Source of the DNA: Desulfovibrio cuneatus DSM 11391
GTDB taxonomy: Bacteria > Desulfobacterota > Desulfovibrionia > Desulfovibrionales > Desulfovibrionaceae
Assembly (NCBI RefSeq): GCF_000430005.1
Contig: NZ_AUCY01000020.1
Location: 1-63,529 of the forward strand
Direction of reading: 5' to 3'
Length of the DNA stretch: 63,529 nt
In this document: positions 1,326 through 5,854 of the stretch, piece by piece
Layout: every line of letters begins with the position of its first letter
Numbering within the stretch: position 1 is the first letter of the stretch
Program-made: the position numbers and the translations under genes
The notes under the pieces: generated by a model
Database searches by the model: none
What the model was told of the DNA's origin: nothing
The model's input: the letters and a program-made list of their open reading frames with translations, nothing else

Positions 1326-2408
1326 TTACAGGCTGTGGCGTGAAGGTGGGTGCGGGACTAAGGAAGCAAGGGCGCTTGCTTCACCGGTAAAATAAGGAGG
1401 AGGGGTAACCGCAGCGGTGAGCACGCGGTTGCGGCTTAATTTTTTAGCTTCATACAGGGCGCTGTCTGCATTGGTGGTAATGTGCTGCATGAGGGCACCA
1501 GTGTGTTCTGTGCTGTACCATTCGGGCAAAATAACCGCAACGCCCATACTTACAGTAATGGGTACCGTGCGTTTGTCGGTTGTGGGCACCGGGGTTTCCT
1601 GAATGGCGGCGCGTATGCGTTCTGCCGCTGCGTAGCCTTGTTGCAGGTCTGCCCCGCTAAAGAAAAAGATAAATTCTTCCCCGCCGTACCTGCCAAAAAT
1701 ATCACACTGGCGCAAATGTTTCTGCGCAGTACTTACCATGTGCTTCAGGGCTTCGTCGCCTTCAGGGTGGCCGTATGTGTCGTTGAATTTTTTGAAATGG
1801 TCAATGTCCAGCATGGCAATGCAGCAGGGCATACCAGCTAAGCTGGCGCTTTGGATTTCCACAGTGGTGAGGGAATGGAAGGAGCGACGGTTTAACACGC
1901 CAGTAAGGGCGTCGTGTTCTGCCAGGTATTTGAACTTGGCTTCGCTCTGCTTCAAGGCATACACAGCGGCAGTGCGCAATTCCACTTCTTTTTGCAACGT
2001 TTTTGCAAGGGTGGTCAGGGCTTCTTCCTTCAGGCGCAGGGCGCTCATGGTGGTATCAAGCTGCATGACCATGTTGTTGAACGCTTCAGAAAAGTCACCA
2101 AGAAATTGCAGGCGCTGGGTAAAATCGCCGCTCTCCACTTGCTGTACCTGCCATGTCATGTGGCGCAGGTGTGACTGCAAAGCTTTGAACGAGCCAGCCA
2201 TGAACCCTTTCATGCGAATGTCGGCAGAAAGGTTGCCTTTTGTGAAGTCTGAAAGAATTCCCCGCAAGACTACCAATTTCTGGTGCAGTTCCTCAATGTT
2301 GGCAACGTCTTGAAGTTCTTCAGGGATTGGGGGCGGCGAGGCACTCTCAATAAGGCTGTTCACAAGCCACACAAGAAGATCCATAGGATCCTTGGGAGTG
2401 CCAGTCAT
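1326..2408 (-). CDS. Diguanylate cyclase (GGDEF) with HAMP-like N-terminal region
   Basis: Makes cyclic di-GMP from two GTP. The C-terminal GGDEF domain (about residues 160-335) contains the active-site motif GGEEF at 242-246. An RxxD inhibitory site (RQCD, 233-236) lies five residues upstream, so product feedback inhibition is expected. The N-terminal 150 residues have no membrane segment but contain a HAMP-like stretch (VESGDFTQRLQFLGDFSEAF) and a coiled coil, suggesting a cytosolic dimer that passes a signal to the catalytic domain. The gene lies six bases downstream of the V4R gene and is almost certainly co-transcribed with it. It ends in a proline- and serine-rich tail. Enzyme assignment is confident; the controlled process is unknown. 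Confidence 0.93.
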   Translation of the reverse strand: MTGTPKDPMDLLVWLVNSLIESASPPPIPEELQDVANIEELHQKLVVLRGILSDFTKGNLSADIRMKGFMAGSFKALQSHLRHMTWQVQQVESGDFTQRLQFLGDFSEAFNNMVMQLDTTMSALRLKEEALTTLAKTLQKEVELRTAAVYALKQSEAKFKYLAEHDALTGVLNRRSFHSLTTVEIQSASLAGMPCCIAMLDIDHFKKFNDTYGHPEGDEALKHMVSTAQKHLRQCDIFGRYGGEEFIFFFSGADLQQGYAAAERIRAAIQETPVPTTDKRTVPITVSMGVAVILPEWYSTEHTGALMQHITTNADSALYEAKKLSRNRVLTAAVTPPPYFTGEASALASLVPHPPSRHSL

Positions 2409-2414
2409 GAAGTG

Positions 2415-2942
2415 TTACTCGGTAGGTTTGGCGCTGAAGCGGCAGGTTCTTGCGCCAGTGCACCAGCAATCCACTTCCTTCACTTCAAAAGTCTTGCCAG
2501 TAAAACCAAGTAGAATGCCTGCAATGAACCCTTCATCGTACACGCATATCTGGTCGTCAATATCAGGAAGGCCAGAGCAGTCCAGGTCTTCATCTACGGT
2601 GAACATGGCTTCCATGGTTTCCGGGTTGAACGATTCCACGCGGAAAATGCCAATGCCAAGGTCTTTGAAGAGGTCCTGCACACGCTTTACAAGGGTGTTT
2701 ACATCGGTAGCTTCAGTGCAAAACTTATCGTAAAAGGCTTTGCCTGCCAGTACACCGGCATGGCGGAATAATGTGTCTGCCACTTCGGTGCCGTAATTTT
2801 GTTCAATAACATCACGCATGGTAAACTGAAAAAGGCGGTATACCTCAATGCTGGTGTTGCCCCCCAGACTAGGGCGGGCAAGGGCAAGGTCACTGCCTAT
2901 AACGTCCCAGGTAAATTCATACTTTCGTTGCTTTTCAGACAT
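2415..2942 (-). CDS. V4R-domain sensor protein
   Basis: 175-residue protein that appears to be a free-standing V4R (4-vinyl reductase-type) domain. This small-molecule-binding fold is known from the A domain of XylR/DmpR-type regulators and from bacteriochlorophyll enzymes. Supporting features are the FTMRDVIEQNYGTEVADTLFRHAG region and the C-terminal cysteine pattern CWCTGARTCRF, characteristic of the fold. The frame is open to 3221, but the ATG at 2940-2942 has an AAAGGA ribosome site 11 bases upstream and starts the conserved part, so I chose it. The six-base gap to the diguanylate cyclase gene suggests it senses a ligand and controls that enzyme. The ligand is unknown. Confidence 0.8.
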   Translation of the reverse strand: MSEKQRKYEFTWDVIGSDLALARPSLGGNTSIEVYRLFQFTMRDVIEQNYGTEVADTLFRHAGVLAGKAFYDKFCTEATDVNTLVKRVQDLFKDLGIGIFRVESFNPETMEAMFTVDEDLDCSGLPDIDDQICVYDEGFIAGILLGFTGKTFEVKEVDCWCTGARTCRFSAKPTE

Positions 2943-5359: not shown

Positions 5360-5854
5360 CTATTGGGTGGTTTCTGTGGCGTTGCCAGCAACGCGGGCTG
5401 CCTGTTCTTCAATGCCGGCAATTTGTTCCTGTACTTTCGGGGTGCTGCGCCATTCAGCATACAGTTGTTGCCAGCGGGCAAAGGGAATGAAGGCTTCGTC
5501 CAACTGGTCTTCATGGTTTTGCACCCACATGCCGAACAGGTTCAGCTCCATGTGGAAGCGGGCAGAATCAAACACTTCCTTAATGGTGTGCTCCGGGCTG
5601 GCTGTTTCAAGGCGGCCTGCTACGAACATGCACACTGCTTCCACGGAAGACTGGTGGTCAATTTCCCGGCCATCCAGCATTTCCGCCAGGCCAAACAAGG
5701 TGGGGTAATCGGTTTTAATGCGCTCCACCGCCTTTTCTGGCAGGGAAATAATGAGCTTGTCGCCTTTTTCGGCAATAAAGTAAAAGCGCAGCCAGTTTTC
5801 AAACATAACCACTTCCACAATGCGGTCAAAGGCGGTTTCGAACGAGGTTTTCAT
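5360..5854 (-). CDS. Conserved hypothetical cytoplasmic protein
   Basis: 164 residues, first gene of the operon that continues into the MnmM-like methyltransferase six bases downstream. No signal peptide or membrane segment. It is acidic and mostly helical, with an alternating beta-like segment near the start (ENWLRFYFIAEKGDKLIISLP). The final 25 residues look like a flexible alanine/glutamate-rich tail. I do not recognise a family. Start at ATG 5852-5854 gives a typical bacterial length with no better alternative. Confidence 0.7.
   Translation of the reverse strand: MKTSFETAFDRIVEVVMFENWLRFYFIAEKGDKLIISLPEKAVERIKTDYPTLFGLAEMLDGREIDHQSSVEAVCMFVAGRLETASPEHTIKEVFDSARFHMELNLFGMWVQNHEDQLDEAFIPFARWQQLYAEWRSTPKVQEQIAGIEEQAARVAGNATETTQ

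Follow-up and report, generated by a model that had tools for sequence, protein, structure and literature searches.

What does a free-standing V4R gene do six bases ahead of a gene for a cytosolic GGDEF enzyme? This question is raised by a contig of Desulfovibrio cuneatus DSM 11391 (NZ_AUCY01000020.1), analysed here as a window of 63,529 nucleotides, the whole stretch to which all coordinates below refer. An earlier note, made from the sequence alone, had proposed that the two genes form a two-protein module turning a small aromatic, tetrapyrrole or gas signal into cyclic di-GMP. Our literature search, with most subscription journals outside its coverage, returned no paper on this pair of V4R protein and di-HAMP partner, and the terms V4R, 4VR and vinyl are absent from the main text of a census of c-di-GMP stimuli and receptors (PMC8846402). 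Our analysis makes it probable that the two genes encode a two-protein signalling unit, in which a V4R sensor acting in trans would bind a di-HAMP stalk and thereby control c-di-GMP synthesis.

A stand-alone V4R protein with a predicted zinc site

Both genes lie on the minus strand, in the arrangement that the earlier note had described. The first (2415-2942) encodes a stand-alone V4R protein of 175 amino acids, assigned on its Pfam match and AlphaFold2 fold, and just 6 bp (2414-2409) separate its stop codon from the second (1326-2408), which encodes a predicted cytosolic diguanylate cyclase of 360 amino acids. The Pfam V4R domain (PF02830) covers residues 114-173 of the first protein with an E-value of 5.5e-16 and 58.8 bits against a curated cut-off of 31; no other Pfam family, HNOB included, matches this protein at E 0.01, and it has no transmembrane stretch, the highest 19-residue hydropathy being 1.1. 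It is the single V4R match in the Desulfovibrio cuneatus genome (3.36 Mb, 76 contigs searched). The AlphaFold2 model, built from 76 sequences (pLDDT 87.6), finds its best structural matches in the sensor domains of MopR, PoxR and DmpR (Z 14.6-15.9, with MopR at 15.9), followed by MJ1460 (Z 14.1), TRAPP/Bet3 proteins (Z about 13) and BcsD, with H-NOX (Z 9.7) and guanylate cyclase (Z 9.5) lower. Outside the Pfam domain, residues 6-27 (2862-2927, minus strand) form an N-terminal arm with the pattern RKYxFxW...G...RPxLG, of which F10, W12, R23 and G27 are identical in all 104 V4R sequences compared, and this arm is a candidate docking surface.

Conservation and a profile alignment with MopR together point to a zinc site, which, with one extra cysteine, C161, spans 2442-2546 on the minus strand. 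The predicted ligands are C133 (codon 2544-2546), E156 (2475-2477), C159 (2466-2468) and C167 (2442-2444), and they align, with the same spacing, to C155, E178, C181 and C189, which we take to be the numbering of the MopR zinc ligands. According to the available text of one source, the zinc site of a phenol-sensor V4R domain consists of three cysteines and one glutamate and is structural (PMC10715001). C133, E156 and C159 are present in 104/104 sequences and C167 in 103/104; C161 (codon 2460-2462), which falls outside the predicted ligands, is present in 99/104. A further extra cysteine, C122 (codon 2577-2579), belongs to a conserved DLDCSGLP loop (2565-2588, minus strand) and also occurs in 104/104, a figure partly selected for, since one of the two patterns used in our GTDB scan was [EQ]DLDCSGLP. 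The region of this loop, residues 121-130, is the lowest block of the V4R model (pLDDT 55). The cysteine cluster read in the earlier note is thus present, with the spacing CWC-x5-C (C159, W160, C161, C167) in place of the CWC-x4-C given there; its C159 and C167 join C133 and E156 in the alignment to the MopR zinc site, and C161 and C122 are additional.

A cyclase with a tandem HAMP-like stalk

By its sequence, the second gene product is predicted to be a diguanylate cyclase that makes c-di-GMP. Its GGDEF catalytic domain occupies residues 163-328 (1425-1922, minus strand; Pfam E 2.1e-38), with the active-site signature GGEEF at residues 242-246 (1671-1685) and the inhibitory I-site motif RxxD, here RQCD, at residues 233-236 (1701-1712), both recognised as sequence motifs on the same strand. 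RxxD is kept in 67 of the 68 partners in the GTDB set that have GG[DE][ED]F. The protein has no transmembrane stretch (highest 19-residue hydropathy 1.2), and the earlier description of a cytosolic GGDEF enzyme with an intact feedback site is borne out. Pfam places no sensor domain in it.

The region ahead of the catalytic domain is the part that links this protein to other V4R partners. Residues 38-120 (2049-2297, minus strand) form a tandem HAMP-like module, delimited by a module profile and by the helices of the model and common to V4R partners; the profile has one match in the Desulfovibrio cuneatus genome. In the AlphaFold2 model of the partner (78 sequences, pLDDT 93.6, pTM 0.68) helices run over residues 8-21, 38-56, 69-92 and 105-164, so that the module reads helix-loop-helix-loop-helix, a layout that suggests two HAMP units in series. 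The last of these is a long signalling helix (1917-2096, minus strand; block pLDDT 94-98) that leads into the GGDEF domain. The HAMP-like segment of the earlier note is visible as tandem helices in the model, although its Pfam score stays under the threshold: HAMP (PF00672) matches at E 0.0098 in the whole protein and at 0.0006 in the module alone, with 20.5 bits against a cut-off of 25. When 20 modules were scanned alone, 17 matched HAMP at E 0.01 or better (best 7.5e-9) and one matched HAMP_N3. The modelled GGDEF domain reaches Z 25.3 against solved GGDEF domains, and such structures fill the VIA-align rows for the partner model, in which stalk folds are barely represented.

Occurrence of the pair

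The pair recurs in distantly related, mostly anaerobic bacteria; among its cultured hosts, by the titles of their records, are Desulfuromusa kysingii, Sporomusa ovata and Breznakiella homolactica. A first survey of 59 genomes, including the window's own, with the V4R protein as query gave 24 loci in 20 genomes, and at 23 of these 24 (the exception being L046) the next downstream gene carries the N-terminal module of the window's cyclase, a count to be read with the fact that the module profile, derived from genes beside V4R, is biased towards detecting modules there. The pattern in these partners is GDLS...RG..AG.LKALQ..L.HLTWQ..QVA.GDFSQRV.FMGEFS.AFN.M. A GTDB-wide scan then confirmed at least 588 relatives, of which the best 80 were analysed; these are the most window-like ones and make an uneven sample, in which at least three loci (L059, L075, L079) repeat those of the first survey. 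They carry 14 NCBI phylum labels, and the module adjoins V4R in 78 of the 80, with none at L106 and L128. It lies downstream on the same strand in 77 cases and upstream in one (L088), and for 58 of the 77 downstream partners a possible start codon stands no more than 50 bp from the V4R stop, the other 19 lying farther away, up to 662 bp. No locus among these best 80, or among 31 later ones, has V4R fused to the module in a single reading frame; such V4R fusions as do occur are C-terminal on large proteins that lack the module.

A more even sample was provided by 247 genomes of the phylum, with thresholds of E 1e-20 for V4R and E 1e-12 for the module. Its 35 V4R rows correspond to 33 places, two genes in two pieces each being counted once. 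V4R occurs in 23 genomes, the module in 21 and both in 18 (hypergeometric P 4e-20), and adjacency holds at 21/33 V4R places and 21/26 module places. The 12 V4R places that lack an adjacent module comprise one contig-end fragment and 11 others; three of the 11 have V4R at the C-terminus of large proteins and one (L136) precedes a PAS-GGDEF gene that has no module. Modules without an adjacent V4R number 5/26 in this sample, and 6/29 among the strong modules (E under 1e-20) of the 59 genomes. The adjacency is strong, yet the pairing is optional. Asked whether the pair is kept in relatives, as the earlier note had suggested checking, the three samples answer that it is, and far beyond them. Its V4R-cyclase module survives in altered form: the pair is conserved, but the conserved part of the partner is the tandem HAMP-like module, not the cyclase.

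Singly occurring V4R genes and modules are what would be expected if the two genes were merely co-transcribed, the V4R protein acting elsewhere and the HAMP-like cyclase being driven by something else. We consider this improbable, as adjacency over 14 NCBI phylum labels together with the co-occurrence P of 4e-20 is hard to explain without joint function, and the largest neighbour clusters show little further shared context. The promoter-like and terminator-like sites of this region fall within the spread of shuffles, so co-transcription itself rests on spacing and conservation.

Several other arrangements were seen. In one genome (G110) a V4R gene and a module-GGDEF gene lie at separate places (L140 and L141) besides two adjacent pairs. 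At L130, L131 and L132 a V4R domain of the same subfamily is C-terminal on a large solute-binding/PAS protein, with Pfam SBP and PAS matches in L130, where the fusion protein comes after a V4R and module-SpoIIE pair.

Exchange of output domains

As read from the sequences, the constant part is the V4R protein with the tandem HAMP-like module, and the output varies, being mostly GGDEF. The 23 partners of the first survey divide into 17 GGDEF proteins, two of them with an added PAS, five histidine kinases and one STAS protein, outputs that were read from sequence and in seven cases also by Pfam. A Pfam scan of 78 partners, comprising the window protein and 77 of the 78 GTDB partners (L080, cut by a contig end, was omitted), returned GGDEF in 70, HisKA in five, HATPase in five, HD in two, SpoIIE in one and a PucR HTH in one. 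Nineteen single-partner scans add a GGDEF-EAL protein (L157), a class III nucleotide cyclase (L160), a second SpoIIE (L130) and STAS (L047). Hybrid kinases with receivers and Hpt occur at L041 and L096, and the partner at L156 has no known output domain. Two of the 17 GGDEF partners of the first survey have genes that look broken, beside intact V4R genes: at L029, with a frameshift between stalk and GGDEF, and at L035, with an in-frame stop within GGDEF.

The exchange of outputs can be placed on a V4R tree of 116 rows, made by a quick method, with 29 of 113 inner branches starred and with seven near copies and two split genes omitted. Its 101 labelled rows (80 GGDEF, 14 histidine kinase, 7 others), with labels assigned by motif and hand-corrected from the Pfam scans, imply at least 13 changes of output. 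V4R distances correlate at 0.73 with those of the module and at 0.65 with those of the GGDEF domain. The partial correlations with V4R, for module versus GGDEF, are 0.55 versus 0.34 (81/83 loci), 0.53 versus 0.24 (56 loci) and 0.41 versus 0.10 (36 loci) at three redundancy cut-offs, and each time zero falls inside the bootstrap interval of the difference. Closer co-divergence of V4R with the module than with the GGDEF domain is suggestive only. A broader reading, which may hold about as readily as it may fail, is that V4R/di-HAMP pairs form a widespread class, in which a stand-alone, cysteine-rich V4R protein of anaerobes, probably a sensor of redox state or of a small hydrophobic molecule, acts through one standard stalk on at least eight outputs (GGDEF, EAL, HD, histidine kinase, SpoIIE phosphatase, class III cyclase, STAS and PucR-type HTH).

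Candidate signals

The aromatic, tetrapyrrole or gas signal proposed in the earlier note found no support in the sequence. His106 and Trp134 of MopR anchor phenol, according to the available text of the source (PMC10715001). Neither His nor Trp stands at the aligned columns 94 and 112 in any of the 104 V4R sequences, though the profile alignment is weak here; column 94 is D or E in 83/104 and column 112 is mostly F, L or C. Over columns 86-116 Trp occurs nowhere in the 104 sequences and His in at most 12 at any one column (column 111), and no His reaches 90% conservation, which leaves no candidate for a haem ligand like that of H-NOX. With the phenol anchors absent (0/104), an aromatic or a haem signal is unsupported, and we set aside aromatic, tetrapyrrole and haem-gas signals on these anchors, on the want of a conserved His and on the BchJ 4-vinyl reductase profile (TIGR02019), which gives 15.3 bits, far below its cut-off of 74.3.

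The cysteines invite a second reading, somewhat short of an even call, in which the signal is redox and, under oxidative stress, oxidation or loss of zinc at C133, C159 and C167, together with C122 and C161, would make the V4R protein switch the cyclase. Many of the pair-carrying hosts are presumably anaerobes, which would suit a redox signal. The cysteines are near-invariant (C122, C133 and C159 in 104/104, C167 in 103/104, C161 in 99/104), although C161 is absent in 5/104 and the DLDCSGLP motif was partly selected for by the scan pattern. All 76 members scanned match the methanogen regulator MsvR in NCBIfam at E 0.001 or better. In the available portions of the two sources, redox switching is proposed for MsvR (PMC3729527) and for haem-free H-NOX (PMC8738867). 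The MsvR cysteines C206, C232 and C240 are spaced by 26 and 8, as are C133, C159 and C167; C206A alters the redox response of MsvR according to the text available (PMC3729527). Haem-free Vibrio cholerae H-NOX forms disulfides at its zinc site, again as far as the accessible text goes (PMC8738867), which offers a further precedent; against this, the three canonical cysteines also build the structural zinc site of phenol sensors, by the accessible text of PMC10715001. Among the neighbours, a peroxiredoxin gene (AhpC-TSA, E 2.6e-32; 2230-2823 of L032) ends 48 bp before the V4R gene on the same strand, and another (3452-4099 of L141) immediately precedes a module-GGDEF gene that has no V4R beside it. 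Across all fetched loci, however, these two are the sole matches of the peroxiredoxin probe, and the rubrerythrin probe matched only L070, L091 and L098; by our estimate, such frequencies may be about the chance level in anaerobes.

Alternatively, the pocket of the V4R domain may bind a small hydrophobic or aromatic molecule, in the manner of MopR, PoxR and DmpR. We hold this reading tentatively: the phenol-sensor domains are the best structural matches of the V4R model (Z 14.6-15.9) and TRAPPC3, of related fold, is listed with bound palmitate, but the MopR phenol anchors are absent from the weakly aligned columns (0/104) and the 40 largest neighbour clusters contain no metabolic family that turns up again in distant groups. 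We give redox and another small hydrophobic ligand nearly the same likelihood, and we lean slightly to redox because of the peroxiredoxin neighbours in L032 and L141.

Neighbour genes were otherwise discarded as a hint to the signal, since the clusters are mostly restricted to close relatives. Most of the 40 largest are confined to the Treponema group, termite-gut Deltaproteobacteria or Synergistaceae, and some are antisense or spurious frames. Read by eye, a cluster that spans distant loci is an ABC transporter and others are signalling proteins; rubrerythrin spans three loci.

Origin and surroundings of the pair

On the tree the nearest relative of the window's V4R protein is that of Oxalobacter (L050; 72% over 174 columns, SH-aLRT 97), and V4R copies from its own genus reach up to 64% identity, below Oxalobacter. 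The window's partner is likewise closest to the Oxalobacter partner, at 55%, the highest of 77 compared. The shared nearest relative suggests that the pair was transferred as a unit between phyla; paralogy or wrong binning could also account for the likeness to Oxalobacter. A plasmid search returned no match. Elsewhere in the window, an IS200-like Y1 transposase fragment (3-263, Pfam E 7e-20) is cut by the contig end; short stretches that look inverted come after it, at about 265-350. An uncharacterised open reading frame of 164 amino acids (5360-5854) has no Pfam match at E 0.01, and a relative of it (46% over 150 amino acids) stands directly after the V4R/cyclase pair of L043, in genome G017.

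Discussion

The two proteins, their adjacency, the partner module, the exchange of outputs, the predicted folds and the zinc-ligand pattern are computed features of this locus and its relatives, and they can be drawn together in a model of signal transfer between separate chains. The input would be the soluble V4R protein, with its predicted zinc site and two additional cysteines, and the partner would supply both transmitter and output through its tandem HAMP-like stalk, long helix and diguanylate cyclase. The V4R protein, probably as a dimer, would bind the di-HAMP stalk in trans. A change in redox state or a small hydrophobic molecule would alter its shape, the stalk would shift between conformations in response, and the state of the stalk would decide whether the two GGDEF domains of the cyclase dimer meet. 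Physical binding, the dimer state, the direction of the effect and the nature of the signal are the parts of this model that we infer.

Should the proteins bind, many GGDEF proteins, kinases and phosphatases that appear to lack a sensor would gain an identified input. V4R, mostly known in cis in transcription regulators, would then, if the model is true, act in trans as a sensor, much as H-NOX does. The stalk could be a portable adaptor if types of V4R and of stalk pair one to one.

Known systems offer partial parallels. MopR, PoxR and DmpR carry their V4R domain in the same chain as a sigma54 activator; they share with the window's protein the V4R fold and the Cys-Glu-Cys-Cys zinc ligands, but their phenol anchors are absent from V4R proteins of the window's type. 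MsvR of methanogens is matched in NCBIfam at E 8e-17 and has the same cysteine spacing, but its V4R domain shares a chain with a DNA-binding domain, by the accessible text of PMC3729527. Assignment of the window's protein to MsvR itself was rejected, at 61.7 bits against a cut-off of 220 and with only profile positions 103-235 of 236 matching. PYP-V4R and PcrS-type sensors likewise use V4R as the input of signalling proteins, but fused in one chain, and the available parts of the sources mention no stand-alone V4R protein that has a separate di-HAMP partner (PMC12826048, PMC10715001).

Two further systems have their regulator in a separate protein. SiaC, to our knowledge, is no V4R protein, and the window's cyclase scores 143.2 bits against a SiaD equivalog cut-off of 290. 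Nevertheless, the top Foldseek match of the partner model is SiaD solved in complex with its activator SiaC, and VIA-align superposes the two over residues 52-332 with Z 24.1 and an rmsd of 7.7, the stalk shapes being only roughly alike. In Pseudomonas aeruginosa, as the accessible text describes it, SiaC is a small separate protein that activates the diguanylate cyclase SiaD by binding its stalk and promoting active dimers (PMC8457831). H-NOX proteins are, from the text available, stand-alone sensors that regulate cyclases or kinases, cyclases being direct targets of some and kinases of others (PMC8738867). Their fold is related to that of the window's V4R protein (Z 9.7), which differs in having no HNOB match at E 0.01 and no conserved haem His. 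Although a member of neither system, the unit would, by analogy, work like SiaC with SiaD or like H-NOX with its partners.
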